Shown: positions 37,488 to 41,703 of the stretch, in pieces
Layout: the number at the start of each line of letters is the position of its first letter
Position numbering within the stretch: the first letter of the stretch is position 1
From: Phycisphaerae bacterium
GTDB taxonomy: Bacteria; Planctomycetota; Phycisphaerae; Phycisphaerales; UBA1924
Direction: 5' to 3'
Assembly: GCA_030429705.1 (NCBI GenBank)
Contig: JAUIES010000003.1
Location: 1 to 64,000, forward strand
DNA: 64,000 bases
Position numbers and translations under genes: made by a program
Notes under the pieces: generated by a model
Told to the model about the DNA's origin: nothing
The model's database searches: none
What the model saw: the letters and a program-made list of their open reading frames with translations, nothing else

Positions 37488-37515
37488 TTGACTCTTGCGA
37501 GCCGGGTTGTATGCT
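37488..37515 (+). promoter_or_regulatory. Putative sigma-70 promoter of the methionine-branch operon
   Basis: TTGACT (37488-37493), a 16-base spacer and TATGCT (37510-37515) form a good primary-sigma promoter immediately upstream of the riboswitch. The -10 is only two bases from the assigned P1 stem, so either the stem is shorter than drawn or transcription starts within it. The spacing supports a leader RNA but the exact start is unverified. Confidence 0.6.
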
Positions 37516-37517
37516 GA

Positions 37518-37602
37518 GGCTGCATCAAGAGTCCCGGGGTGTCTCCAAAGGCCTCGGGCGGCAACCGAGCTGGTTTTTCCAGCCACGGTGCCGAGACCAG
37601 CC
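37518..37602 (+). ncRNA. SAM-clan riboswitch (SAM-I/IV-like), aptamer core
   Basis: The leader contains the core of the SAM-I/SAM-IV clan: ATCAAGAG at 37524-37531, CGGCAACC at 37559-37566 and CACGGTGCC at 37584-37592. Foldable stems are P1 GGCTG/CAGCC (37518-37522 with 37598-37602), P2 CCCGGGG/CCTCGGG (37533-37539 with 37552-37558, one G-U) and P3 GCTGG/CCAGC (37569-37573 with 37579-37583). The P2 loop GTCTC (37541-37545) is exactly complementary to GAGAC (37593-37597), giving the clan's pseudoknot. There is no separate P4, which favours SAM-IV or the SAM-I/IV variant. Further stems at about 37623-37648 and 37658-37675 may be the expression platform. The location before methionine-branch genes agrees. 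Confidence 0.8.
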
Positions 37603-37657
37603 CCGGCGTGGGGAACGATGTGGACGAAATCGCTTCGGCGGGGTTCGTCAAAATGAG

Positions 37658-37675
37658 CGTGACGGTGTCGTCACG
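37658..37675 (+). other. Hairpin between riboswitch and start
   Basis: Perfect 7-bp inverted repeat CGTGACG/CGTCACG (37658-37664 and 37669-37675) with a 4-base loop. It lies between the aptamer and the sequestering hairpin, and no T-run follows, so it is not an intrinsic terminator. Confidence 0.55.
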
Positions 37676-37701
37676 ATCCACGCCAACACTGGATGCTCTC
37701 G

Positions 37702-37725
37702 ATGCTGAGAAGGAGTTCTCAGCAT
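37702..37725 (+). promoter_or_regulatory. Ribosome-binding-site sequestering hairpin with SD in the loop
   Basis: ATGCTGAGAA (37702-37711), GGAG (37712-37715) and TTCTCAGCAT (37716-37725) form a perfect 10-bp stem with the Shine-Dalgarno GGAG as its loop and the first two bases of the ATG start (37724-37726) in the stem. Closing this hairpin would hide the start codon. Its position after the riboswitch suggests translational control; how the aptamer state changes this fold is not visible. Confidence 0.75.
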
Positions 37726-39004
37726 GGGACATGTCATTGCATCAACTGCGTCATCGTTGGATTCAATTTGTCTTGGGCGCGGCGGAAACGGCTCGGGTGC
37801 GTCCCGAGGCGACGGGCAGCCGCTCGTCGGGGCGATTGTTCAATCAACCACCTTTTGCCGATCGGGTGTCGGATCGAACCCCGAGCACCAGTATTCGCGG
37901 GTCTCGAATCCGACCGTGACCGAACTGGAAACGGTGCTCGGGAATCTGGAGCGGGCTTTGCCTGCGGCGTGCTTCGCGACCGGGTTGGCAGCGGAAACGG
38001 CTTTGTTTCTCGCGGTCCTCAAGCAGGGTGACCATGTCGTGTGCGGGGCGTCGGTCTATGGCGGAACGACGCGGCTTTTGCAGCAGTTGCTATCCGGGCT
38101 CGGGGTCGAAACGACCTTCGTTGATGCGACGAACGCAAGCGAGATCGAGGCGGCGGTGCAGGCGAATACGAAGTTGATTTTCGTTGAAACGCCGGCGAAT
38201 CCGACGCTGGGGATCACCGATATCGAAGCGTGCGCGAAGATCGCAAAAACAGCGGGCGTGTTGCTGGCGGTGGACAACACATTCCTGACGCCGGTGCTGC
38301 AGCAGCCACTCGACCTTGGGGCGGATATCTCGGTCTATTCGACGACGAAGTTCATCGATGGGCACTCGATCGCGCTCGGCGGGGCGATCGTCTCGCGTGA
38401 TGCCGAACTGCTGGAACGAGTTCGGTGGATTCGCAAGTGTACCGGTGCGATTCAGTCGCCGTTATCTGCGTGGCTGACGACGAACGGGGTCAAAACGCTG
38501 CCGCTGCGAGTGCGGGCGCAATCGAAGCGTGCTGAGACAGTTGCGCGTTGGCTGAGCGAACAACCGGAGATTCGCAGCGTGTTTCATCCGTCGCAAGCGA
38601 CCGGCGACGCAAAGGCGATTGCCGATCGCCAGCATGTGGGCGGTCATGGGGCCGTGGTATCGTTTGAAATCGAGGGGGGATATGCGGCTGGGTGCCGGTT
38701 TGTTGAGCACTTGCAACTATGCACGCTGGTCGAACATGTGGGCTCGGTCGAAACGCTGATCACGCACCCGGCATCGATGACGCACGCGGATGTGCCAAGA
38801 GACCAGCGCGAGGCGGTCGGTGTGTCCGATAGCTTGCTTCGCCTGTCGGTCGGGCTGGAAGATGTGGATGAGATCATCGGTGATCTGCGACGCGGTCTGG
38901 ATGCGGTTGTTGACGCTGCCGGGACAGATGAGGGGTGTGGATGCACCTCGAACGAAGCCTCATTGTGCACTGAGACACGGCACTGCGAGGTGGCAAGTGT
39001 CTGA
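37724..39004 (+). CDS. Trans-sulfuration enzyme, cystathionine gamma-synthase/O-acylhomoserine sulfhydrylase type
   Basis: 426 residues, PLP-dependent aspartate-aminotransferase fold I of the Cys/Met metabolism family. Signatures: QYSRVSNPTVTELETVLGNL (the Tyr-Ser-Arg site), FATGLAAETALFLAVL, VYGGTTRLLQQLLSGLGVET, FVETPANPTLGITDIEACAK, AVDNTFLTPVLQQPLDLGAD and the PLP-Lys motif YSTTKFIDGHSIALGG. Whether it forms cystathionine (MetB) or uses sulfide directly (MetZ) is not decided by these motifs. It converts an acylhomoserine to homocysteine or its precursor. The start has the SD inside a hairpin loop, and a SAM-type riboswitch precedes it; the C-terminus overlaps the next start by 8 bases. 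Confidence 0.9.
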   Translation: MGHVIASTASSLDSICLGRGGNGSGASRGDGQPLVGAIVQSTTFCRSGVGSNPEHQYSRVSNPTVTELETVLGNLERALPAACFATGLAAETALFLAVLKQGDHVVCGASVYGGTTRLLQQLLSGLGVETTFVDATNASEIEAAVQANTKLIFVETPANPTLGITDIEACAKIAKTAGVLLAVDNTFLTPVLQQPLDLGADISVYSTTKFIDGHSIALGGAIVSRDAELLERVRWIRKCTGAIQSPLSAWLTTNGVKTLPLRVRAQSKRAETVARWLSEQPEIRSVFHPSQATGDAKAIADRQHVGGHGAVVSFEIEGGYAAGCRFVEHLQLCTLVEHVGSVETLITHPASMTHADVPRDQREAVGVSDSLLRLSVGLEDVDEIIGDLRRGLDAVVDAAGTDEGCGCTSNEASLCTETRHCEVASV

Positions 39005-40694
39005 TCGGCCCTTGATTGTTTTAAAGTTTGGCGGGTCGGTGTTGCTCGACGAGCAGACGCTGCGCATCGCGGTGCATGAGATCTACCGATGGCGGCGTGA
39101 GGGGTGGCGGGTACTCGCGGTGGTATCTGCACTTGCCGGGCGGACTGAATCGCTCGTCGCACGATGTGCTGCGGTTTCGCCGAGTGCTTCGCAAGCGTCG
39201 CAAGCCGGTGTGATCGGGCTTGGTGAATATGAATCGGCTGGGTTGCTGGGGGTGCACCTAGACCGCGTAGGTGTACCGGCGACCGTGCTGACGCCGTGTG
39301 CGATCGGCTTATTCGCGGCGGGTGACGCACTTGATGCGGACCTTGTCAGCGTGCATGATGCGGTTGTCCATGCAGCGCTAGAAGCGTGCGGTGTTGTCGT
39401 GGTGCCCGGTTTCGTGGCCAGGGCGGAGGGGGGCGAACTGGTCACGCTCGGCCGCGGCGGGTCTGATCTGACGGCGGTGTTCCTTGCTCACCAACTTGGG
39501 GCTCAGAAGTGTCGGCTGATCAAGGATGTGGACGGGTTGTATGAACGCGATCCGGCTGTTCATGGGCCGAAGCCGGGTCGGTATGGATATGCGTCATATG
39601 ACGATGCCCTCGCAACTGACGGCTCGATTCTACAGCACAAGGCGATCGATTTTGCTCGATCGCATGGGCAGGAGATCGAACTGGGCCGATTCAATGGCAC
39701 GAGGCCGACGCGCATCGGGCCTGGCCAATCGGTGCATGACAATCGGGCCGACACGGTCGAGAGACTCGATGTCGCGCTGTGCGGATTGGGCACGGTGGGG
39801 GGAGGTGTGCTTGACCTGGTGTCTCAACTGCCGGACCAGTTTTGCGTGGTTGGAGCAGCCTGCGCGAGTCCTGAGAAACATGTGGCGTTGGAACCGCTCG
39901 CTGGTCGAATCACGGCTGATGCGGTCAGTCTGGCATCGTGCGGGGCCGATGTCGTCGTCGAGGTCATCGGCGGTGTGGATGTTGCCTGGGCGGTGACAGA
40001 GGCCGCGATTGATGCCGGGTGCTCGGTTGTCAGCGCGAACAAGGCGCTGCTCGCAGCACGCGGTGACGAGATCGCCACTCGTTGTGAATGCGGCCGATTC
40101 CTGGCGAGTGCGAGCGTCGGGGGGGTCACGCCGGTGCTCGAAGCGATTCAGGGCCGTGAGGTCGTCTCGATTCGCGGCGTACTCAATGGCACGGGCAACT
40201 TTGTGCTCGGCGCGTTGCAGAAAGGTCCGAGATTGCATGAAGCGGTCGCTGAATCCCAACGGCTCGGGTTTGCCGAGGCCGATCCGTCGCGCGATCTTGA
40301 CGGGAGGGACAGCCTCGACAAGTTGCTGGTGATTGCACAGACGCTTGGTTGGTTGATTGATCACAAGCACATCGAGCGGCAGTCGATTACTGAACAGGCG
40401 TATGCCGATGTCATCGGCCGAAGTGATGGCAACGCCGTGGTTCGGCATGTCGCGATGCTCACACCTCGCGCTGCTTGTGTTCGGCTTGAGGCTGTCACCA
40501 GCGATGATCCACTCGCATCATTGACGAACGAGTGGAATGCTGCGGTCATTTCGTTTGCTGATGGTTCTGAGACGATTGTGCGAGGCAAGGGTGCCGGACG
40601 ATGGCCGACGGCCGAGTCTGTTCTGGCAGACTTGCTTGCGTTGAGCCGTACGCGGTGTGGCGCGCCCGATCGACAGGAGGTCGTCCATGCCTGA
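38997..40694 (+). CDS. Aspartokinase-homoserine dehydrogenase fusion lacking ACT domains
   Basis: GTG at 38997 gives 565 residues; the open frame before it overlaps the upstream gene. Residues 1-243 form the aspartokinase: LIVLKFGGSVLLDEQTLRIA, GRGGSDLTAVFLAHQLGAQK, then KDVDGLYERDPAVHGPKPGR. After a linker of about ten residues the homoserine dehydrogenase begins at about 256 (DVALCGLGTVGGGVLDLVSQ), continuing with VVSANKALLAARGDEIA and VLNGTGNFVLGALQKGPRLH. Enzymes of the ThrA type usually have two ACT regulatory domains between these parts; here there is no room. Operon overlaps by 8 bases on both sides. Probably unable to be inhibited by threonine or lysine through ACT domains. Confidence 0.9.
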   Translation: MSDRPLIVLKFGGSVLLDEQTLRIAVHEIYRWRREGWRVLAVVSALAGRTESLVARCAAVSPSASQASQAGVIGLGEYESAGLLGVHLDRVGVPATVLTPCAIGLFAAGDALDADLVSVHDAVVHAALEACGVVVVPGFVARAEGGELVTLGRGGSDLTAVFLAHQLGAQKCRLIKDVDGLYERDPAVHGPKPGRYGYASYDDALATDGSILQHKAIDFARSHGQEIELGRFNGTRPTRIGPGQSVHDNRADTVERLDVALCGLGTVGGGVLDLVSQLPDQFCVVGAACASPEKHVALEPLAGRITADAVSLASCGADVVVEVIGGVDVAWAVTEAAIDAGCSVVSANKALLAARGDEIATRCECGRFLASASVGGVTPVLEAIQGREVVSIRGVLNGTGNFVLGALQKGPRLHEAVAESQRLGFAEADPSRDLDGRDSLDKLLVIAQTLGWLIDHKHIERQSITEQAYADVIGRSDGNAVVRHVAMLTPRAACVRLEAVTSDDPLASLTNEWNAAVISFADGSETIVRGKGAGRWPTAESVLADLLALSRTRCGAPDRQEVVHA

Positions 40695-41703
40695 GCCAAG
40701 GCCAACCGTAGCGGTGGTGGGGGCATCGGGCATCGTCGGGCGAGAAGCCGTGCAGATTCTCGAAGAACGCGGCGTGCCGCGCGAAAATCTGCGGCTTTAC
40801 GGCTCCACCCGATCGGCAGGTCGGCGTGTTCGGTATGGTGAGGCTGAGATTGAAATCAGGCATGTGGACACAATCGGAAATGACCACCATGACTTCGCGT
40901 TGCTCTGCGCCGATGCGGATGTGGCGCACACGATCCGTACTGCGCTGCACGACATGGACACGGTGCTGATTGACAACTCGTCGGCCTATCGGATGGACCC
41001 GTCTGTGCCGCTCGTGGTGCCAGAGATCAATGGGAACCTCTTGACGACAACGACGCGGCTGATTGCCAATCCGAACTGTTCGACCATCATGATGCTCGCA
41101 GCGATCGAGCCACTGCGGCGAGCGCTGGGTGTGAATGGGATCACCGCGACGACTTATCAGGCGGTTTCGGGTGCGGGGGCTGCGGGCCTCGAGGAGTTGA
41201 TCGATCAGACGGCGGCGGTCACCGCGGGTGAATCGCGCACGCCGACCGTGTTTCCGGTGTCGTGCGGATGGAATGTGTTTGAGCACGAATCGGCGAGAGA
41301 TCCTGAGACGGGGTTCAGCGGCGAAGAGTCGAAGATGGTTGCCGAAAGCCGCCGGATCTGGAACGACCCCGGGCTGAATGTGTTGCCGACCTGTGTGCGT
41401 GTGCCGGTCGAGCGGGCTCATGCGCAGTCGTTGAATGTGGATCTTGATGAACCAACGACGGTGGGGGATGTGCGCGCGCTGCTGGAGGATGCGCCGTGGG
41501 TTCGTGTGTGGCCGGAGGGGCGGTTGTTGACGCCGCGCGATGCGGCGGGGCACGACGAAGTGTTTGTGGGGCGTGTGCGCATGGACCCGGCGAGTGACGG
41601 GAGGCGCGTGCTCTTGTGGGTGTGCTGCGATCAGGTGCGTAAGGGTGCGGCGTTGAATGCGGTGCAGATTATGGAAGAAATGTTGGAGACCGCCTCGTGT
41701 TGA
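40687..41703 (+). CDS. asd: Aspartate-semialdehyde dehydrogenase
   Basis: 338 residues from the ATG at 40687 with SD CAGGAGG at 40674-40680. Signatures are the N-terminal nucleotide loop VAVVGASGIVGREAVQILEE, the catalytic Cys in LIANPNCSTIMMLAAIE, TYQAVSGAGAAGLEELIDQT, and the final VCCDQVRKGAALNAVQIMEE. It reduces aspartyl phosphate to the semialdehyde using NADPH. The gene overlaps the upstream fusion by 8 bases, completing an operon for the shared first steps of methionine, threonine and lysine synthesis that sits behind the SAM-type riboswitch. Confidence 0.95.
   Translation: MPEPRPTVAVVGASGIVGREAVQILEERGVPRENLRLYGSTRSAGRRVRYGEAEIEIRHVDTIGNDHHDFALLCADADVAHTIRTALHDMDTVLIDNSSAYRMDPSVPLVVPEINGNLLTTTTRLIANPNCSTIMMLAAIEPLRRALGVNGITATTYQAVSGAGAAGLEELIDQTAAVTAGESRTPTVFPVSCGWNVFEHESARDPETGFSGEESKMVAESRRIWNDPGLNVLPTCVRVPVERAHAQSLNVDLDEPTTVGDVRALLEDAPWVRVWPEGRLLTPRDAAGHDEVFVGRVRMDPASDGRRVLLWVCCDQVRKGAALNAVQIMEEMLETASC

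Follow-up and report, generated by a model that had tools for sequence, protein, structure and literature searches.

The leader at positions 37488–37675 of the window (the whole 64,000-nucleotide stretch of DNA that was analysed) carries an aptamer of the SAM clan that lies outside the SAM-I, SAM-IV, and SAM-I/IV families, of which SAM-I/IV is the nearest. As judged from the alignment of homologues, the aptamer is a hybrid in which a continuous P2 and a P5-CAAAA module, both SAM-I/IV-like, are combined with a SAM-I-like PK-1 and P4, with no detectable PK-2. The element is probably a SAM-sensing, translation-repressing riboswitch in which an anti-aptamer helix replaces the aptamer fold when SAM is scarce. 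Its expression platform runs past 37675 up to the start codon at 37724. Comparison among homologues establishes the aptamer fold, PK-1, the start hairpin, and the anti-aptamer helix, here called helix B.

The regulated gene (37724–39004, plus strand) encodes a metZ-like pyridoxal-phosphate (PLP) enzyme of cysteine and methionine metabolism (PF01053, 6e-121). It is followed on the same strand by an aspartokinase-homoserine dehydrogenase fusion, AK-HSD (38997–40694; PF00696, PF03447, PF00742), and by aspartate-semialdehyde dehydrogenase, asd (40687–41703; PF01118, PF02774). These Pfam domains agree with the methionine-branch operon named in the preliminary description. The reading frames overlap, as GTG 38997 precedes the stop at 39004 and ATG 40687 precedes the stop at 40694, and therefore the three genes may be translationally coupled.

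Fold of the aptamer

The aptamer core (37520–37623, plus strand) is built of P1, P2, P3, P4, and PK-1. The SAM-clan motifs ATCAAGAG, CGGCAACC, and CACGGTGCC are all present in the leader with the correct spacing. The core of the SAM clan (CL00012), namely a four-way core with AUCAAGAG, GCAACC, GGUGCC, and the AU/UA pairs of P1 by the pocket, is complete. P1 has five base pairs (37522–37526 with 37617–37621), and its 5′ strand GCAUC, together with 37528–37531, doubles as the 5′ strand of an alternative helix A. P2 (37533–37558; 37533–37539 with 37552–37558) is a continuous helix of seven pairs without a kink-turn. In alignment A1 of 24 homologous aptamers, P2 is paired in 99.4% of cells and four of its seven pairs change on both sides. 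A tree test with 26 leaders, mostly from one family, and an independent metZ protein tree gave 10 same-branch changes in P2 against 2.2 expected, with the effects of relatedness only partly removed, as in the permutation tests below. P3 (37560–37592) is defined by pairing in the homologue alignment. Over the whole of A1, 95.5% of cells pair, compared with 36–45% when the partners are slid, and nine pairs are altered on both sides.

PK-1 is formed by GUCUC in L2 (37541–37545) and its exact complement GAGAC (37593–37597). Among 59 aptamers, the pairing of PK-1 strands with their own partners has an energy of −7.0 kcal/mol compared with −5.35 kcal/mol for permuted partners, and none of 10000 permutations is as good. 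The pairs occur, for example, as GUCUC/GAGAC, GCCUC/GAGGC, GCUUC/GAAGC, GACCUC/GAGGUC, and GUCCUC/GAGGAC. When only the metZ tree of the family is considered, the two co-changes against 0.72 expected are not significant (p 0.16).

P4 (CCCC-GGCGU-GGGG, 37601–37613, plus strand) is located between P3 and P1. It is paired in 24 of 24 relatives and in 100% of cells, and is nearly invariant; its support in the alignment is conservation rather than covariation. The preliminary description took P4 to be missing and argued from this that the element is SAM-IV or SAM-I/IV, an argument that fails because P4 had been overlooked. P1 is followed by P5 (37623–37653; 37623–37628 with 37644–37649, then AAAA), a 3′ module of SAM-I/IV type. 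The succession of P5 and CAAAA after P1 matches the RF01725 consensus and was seen in the homologues inspected. The P6 hairpin (37658–37675) is predicted by folding, and most homologues have an equivalent hairpin. A PK-2 between UUUUU of L3 and the AAAA after P5 is plausible in the window alone. Across 40 leaders, pairing of L3 with the sequence 3′ of P5 gave no signal (−5.0 kcal/mol for own partners and −4.83 kcal/mol for permuted ones, with 2115 of 10000 permutations as good), and a weak PK-2 may be present in single sequences.

The preliminary description proposed a search with three Rfam models. With relaxed thresholds, RF00162 matches with 29.4 bits (E 1.6e-4; gathering score 44.4) and RF01725 with 35.9 bits over 37517–37664 (gathering score 41.1), both below gathering, and RF00634 has no match anywhere in this genome. 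In the whole window, every Rfam family stays below its gathering score. A minus-strand match to Guanidine-III, with 14.7 bits against a gathering score of 36, is attributed to chance. The covariance model R1, built from A1, gives the window aptamer 110.8 bits, a score for a sequence that is itself in the R1 training set. The motifs, their spacing, P1–P3, and the GTCTC/GAGAC pseudoknot of the preliminary description are confirmed, and the Rfam scores and homologue pairing put the SAM-clan match beyond chance.

Promoter, start hairpin, and alternative helices

The only promoter detected in the region is of the sigma-70 type (TTGACT-16-TATGCT, 37488–37515, plus strand; 9/12, 0.1 expected in shuffled sequences). 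Its −10 box lies 6–11 nucleotides upstream of GCATC in nearly all homologues. The conserved position indicates that transcripts begin close to P1, at about 37520, and the closeness of the −10 box to P1, previously seen as a tension, is the usual layout. A copy of the start-hairpin 5′ arm in the −10 box, TATGCTGAG, was rejected as a competing strand, as transcription probably begins downstream of it.

The start hairpin (37702–37725, plus strand) has ten base pairs and the sequence AUGCUGAGAA-GGAG-UUCUCAGCAU. The Shine-Dalgarno sequence GGAG (37712–37715) lies in the loop, and the AU of the start codon is paired in the 3′ arm. The two arms co-vary in about 40 leaders: pair 5 is C-G, U-A, or U-G, pair 7 is U-A or A-U, and other pairs change as well. 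Same-branch double changes number 8 against 2.3 expected, and the pair is preserved in all of them.

The linker between P6 and the start hairpin (37677–37692) is complementary to the 3′ strand of L4/P4 and to J3/4. In helix B, UCCACGCC (37677–37684) pairs with 37605–37612 of the L4/P4 3′ strand, and CUGG (37689–37692) pairs with CCAG of J3/4 (37597–37600). Whereas a linker that included P6 produced cluttered duplexes, pairing of the aptamer 3′ half with a restricted linker gave −22.2 kcal/mol for own partners compared with −18.4 kcal/mol for permuted ones, with none of 10000 permutations as good. On the metZ protein tree, segments B1 and B2 each have five double changes on the same branch, where 0.63 and 0.44, respectively, would be expected. 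Slid controls keep almost no pairs, and at most two of their double changes preserve a pair. Helix B occurs, for example, as GAACUC/GAGUUC (locus L114), CGAGC/GCUCG (L122), GGCUAGC/GCUGGCC (L120), GAGCCA/UGGCUC (L125), UGCGAGGGG/CCCCUCGCA (L148), and GAAAGGG/CCCUUUC (L151). Its mean base-pair probability is below 0.3 in 8 of 30 leaders. With J3/4, L4, and the P4 3′ strand engaged, helix B is incompatible with P4 and a competitor of PK-1. In five relatives with an unusual P4 (L121, L113, L153, L161, L163), the linker appears by eye to be complementary to the P1 3′ strand, which seems to be the anti-aptamer principle applied to another target.

Within the same SAM riboswitch, the pairing of the linker could instead be a tertiary pseudoknot between L4 and the downstream strand, compatible with the bound aptamer and contributing to closure of the start hairpin. 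In its favour, the covariation with the linker includes the bases of L4 itself, and SAM-I/IV has a downstream pseudoknot, PK-2, which was reportedly tied to regulation by Trausch in 2014. Nevertheless, we consider such a pseudoknot unlikely, because the pairing continues into the P4 3′ strand and the CCAG of J3/4, which are already occupied by P4 and PK-1. Moreover, the pairing involves almost exclusively the P4 3′ strand in L111 (CGGGGG/CCCCCG) and mainly J3/4 in L121 and L125, and a fully paired five-base loop would be strained.

A second alternative pairing, helix A, is formed by the anti-P1 strand CUCUCGAUGC (37696–37705, plus strand), which complements the P1 5′ strand and J1/2 and has bases in common with the start-hairpin 5′ arm. 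CUCUCGAUGC is complementary to GCAUCAAGAG except for one A·C mismatch, found at a single position in the clade of the window. Among 41 loci, 4.83 of six informative positions pair compared with 2.14 expected, and all six are paired in several groups (L104, L108, L109, L017, L112, L153, L156). The GAUGC used by helix A is needed by the start hairpin regardless, and GGGA downstream of the AUG offers UCUC another partner. Taken together, the comparison supports helix A. Helix A takes up the P1 5′ strand and the start-hairpin 5′ arm, so that neither P1 nor the complete start hairpin can form alongside it. In the model, helices A and B would join with P2 and P3 in an alternative four-way junction.

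The unconstrained minimum free energy structure of the window leader includes the whole of helix B. Imposing the aptamer helices on this leader raises the energy by 4.3 kcal/mol, and forcing P1 has a median cost of 3.4 kcal/mol over 30 leaders. The calculated energies place the aptamer and helix B near balance, which binding of the ligand and PK-1 could tip. According to nearest-neighbour energies, the start hairpin stays formed in most leaders even without SAM. In the window, helix B with the start hairpin is 1.6 kcal/mol better than helices A and B together, so that the equilibrium energies do not favour opening of the start hairpin by helix A.

We propose that transcription begins at about 37520 and that, when SAM is plentiful, P1, P2, P3, P4, and PK-1 fold around the standard SAM pocket and leave the linker free. 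The start hairpin would then form and enclose the AUG with its flanking bases in a helix, so that metZ would not be initiated; translational coupling would extend the repression to AK-HSD and asd, whose frames overlap. Under SAM shortage, the linker UCCACGCC..CUGG would invade P4 and J3/4 and break PK-1, P4, and the SAM pocket. The released P1 5′ strand (GCAUC-A-AGAG) would pair with CUCUCGAUGC and capture the 5′ arm of the start hairpin, which would turn translation on. Opening of the start hairpin by helix A is probably kinetic, because the strands of helix A are transcribed before the start-hairpin 3′ arm and the energies disfavour opening at equilibrium. We infer that SAM acts as the OFF signal, since the targets are biosynthetic.

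It is quite unlikely that the element is a diverged ordinary SAM-I (S-box) or SAM-I/IV riboswitch with constitutive downstream hairpins and transcriptional control through Rho or pausing. The core is identical to that of SAM-I, one of 20 relatives passes an Rfam cut-off (L106, RF01725, 43.5 bits), and the predicted stability of the start hairpin in both states would suit transcriptional control. However, a terminator scan of the leader found no U-tract and no terminator 3′ of the start hairpin, and compensatory changes are seen in both the start hairpin and helix B. The combination of PK-1 and P4 with a P2 that lacks a kink-turn and an undetected PK-2 also departs from both families. Two terminator-like matches, one to P2/P3 sequence and one to a minus-strand site at P6, were discarded.

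Ligand and distribution of the element

The same aptamer type precedes two kinds of operon. In genome G392, metZ and AK-HSD follow in the same order as in the window. At two loci of genome G234 (L187, 3850–8524; L188, 274–4805), the aptamer precedes genes for a MoxR AAA_5 ATPase, a VWA_CoxE-like protein, and a divergent SAM synthetase in which all three Pfam domains are present. Aptamers of this type also precede the operon at L191, L192, and L193. The gene order recurs in G216, G163, and G171, where the third gene was recognised as a putative SAM synthetase by an HPDK motif and sequence resemblance. The tie between a MoxR-VWA pair and SAM synthesis is unusual and possibly reflects enzyme maturation or a link to conflict systems. 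Since one aptamer type fronts both methionine genes and a SAM synthetase, the genomic context supports SAM as the ligand.

Recognition of another ligand, such as SAH or another sulfur or amino-acid metabolite, is highly improbable. Ligand swaps are known among variant riboswitches, and some relatives have an altered J1/2 (AUCCAGAG, AUCCUGAG, AUUCCGAU); in the metZ group, however, AUCAAGAG, GGCAACC, GGUGCC, and the AU/UA pairs of P1 are all invariant, and the targets are methionine biosynthesis and SAM synthetase. The relatives with altered J1/2, which include AUCCCGAG and AUGAAGAG in addition to the three above (among L179, L170, L171, L151, L181, and L180), are candidates for changed ligand specificity.

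The leader is positioned directly upstream of metZ in 29 of the 30 closest metZ orthologues of the order, the exception being G233. This conservation, with covarying helices, refutes a chance resemblance without a regulatory RNA, for which the scores below every Rfam gathering threshold could have spoken. Three relatives (L016–L018) belong to Phycisphaerales, and the Phycisphaerales record JAJDDK010000002.1 holds a member of the family; the sequence match of L018 and L109 places the family of the window in this order, in agreement with the planctomycete-like genome recognised earlier. R1, the E-values of which are rough, detects the element in 52 of the 397 genomes sampled within the class. 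A second sample, of 392 genomes across the phylum, contains it in 19; the two samples share some genomes, and most same-family sequences were used to train R1. The extension of range suggested in the preliminary description is modest, as SAM-I/IV variants were already known from "Several phyla, marine" (PMC2864571). The literature searched for planctomycete SAM riboswitches yielded nothing on this element.

A second aptamer copy is present in the genome of the window (L168, 1501–1599; G000 contig C4, 1790401–1790499), scores 59.5 bits with R1, and lies 78 nucleotides upstream of a 77-residue open frame without assigned function. Tandem SAM-clan aptamers were observed in L002 (1501–1865, G084) and L174/L155 (G323). 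The first aptamer of L002 resembles canonical SAM-I/IV; its PK-2, UGAUCC/GGAUCA, would cover the Shine-Dalgarno sequence. Other SAM-clan aptamers are located near a gene for N-formylglutamate amidohydrolase (PF05013; L162, G654) and, with a P2 of kink-turn type, near an unidentified gene (L166, G678).

Comparison with known SAM riboswitches

The window element is not filed under SAM-I, SAM-IV, or SAM-I/IV because the features that define each family were tested and not all of them were found. It has in common with SAM-I (S box, RF00162) the core sequence, PK-1 between L2 and J3/4, and P4 between P3 and P1. Unlike SAM-I, it has no kink-turn internal loop in P2, a P1 of five base pairs, P5-AAAA after P1, and no terminator, and its score is 29.4 bits compared with the required 44.4.

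SAM-IV has no P4, a P2 split into P2a and P2b, and a PK-2 with P5, as determined by cryo-EM (PMC6890682). The window element shares the SAM-clan core, PK-1, and P5 with SAM-IV (RF00634), but has a P4, an unsplit P2, an undetected PK-2, and no match to the model in its genome. The SAM-IV half of the preliminary assignment was therefore rejected.

The other half comes closer, as SAM-I/IV (RF01725; env87, PDB: 4L81) is the nearest family. The cryo-EM paper (PMC6890682) describes SAM-I/IV with P4 and an undivided P2 but without PK-1. The 4L81 sequence in PMC5393176, as read here, contains a GAGA tetraloop on P2, P4, P5, and an ACGGAC/GUCCGU PK-2, whereas the Rfam model RF01725 itself is without P4. 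Both elements have a five-pair GCAUC/GAUGC P1 followed by GG, P5, and CAAAA, an uninterrupted P2 without an internal loop, the same pocket, and P4, which the SAM-I structure has as well; in addition, L106 passes the gathering score. The window element differs in the presence of PK-1, the undetected PK-2, the expression platform, and the sub-gathering score.

We see an even chance that the element represents a fourth SAM-clan architecture, which would be common across Planctomycetota and nearly always escape Rfam. It would unite PK-1 and P4 of SAM-I with the uninterrupted P2 and P5-CAAAA of SAM-I/IV and have neither a kink-turn nor PK-2. Its recurrent translational platform would set the anti-aptamer strand against J3/4-P4, and the P1 5′ strand against the start codon in competition for one hairpin arm, and it would control methionine synthesis and the MoxR-VWA-SAM synthetase operon.

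SAM-I, SAM-IV, and SAM-I/IV have a common pocket and different peripheries. An aptamer that draws on each peripheral set bears on how one class turns into another, being either a natural intermediate or a separate solution, and can be probed directly. Planctomycetota, a large phylum with few described riboswitches, gains a testable SAM regulon, and 19 of 20 such loci escape the present Rfam models when the curated cut-off is applied. The platform is compact, translational, and has a strong comparative signal. The SAM-III and SAM-VI riboswitches also control translation by hiding the start site; in these, the Shine-Dalgarno region is bound into the aptamer itself, whereas in the window element a separate start hairpin, together with the anti-aptamer strand, would hide the start.
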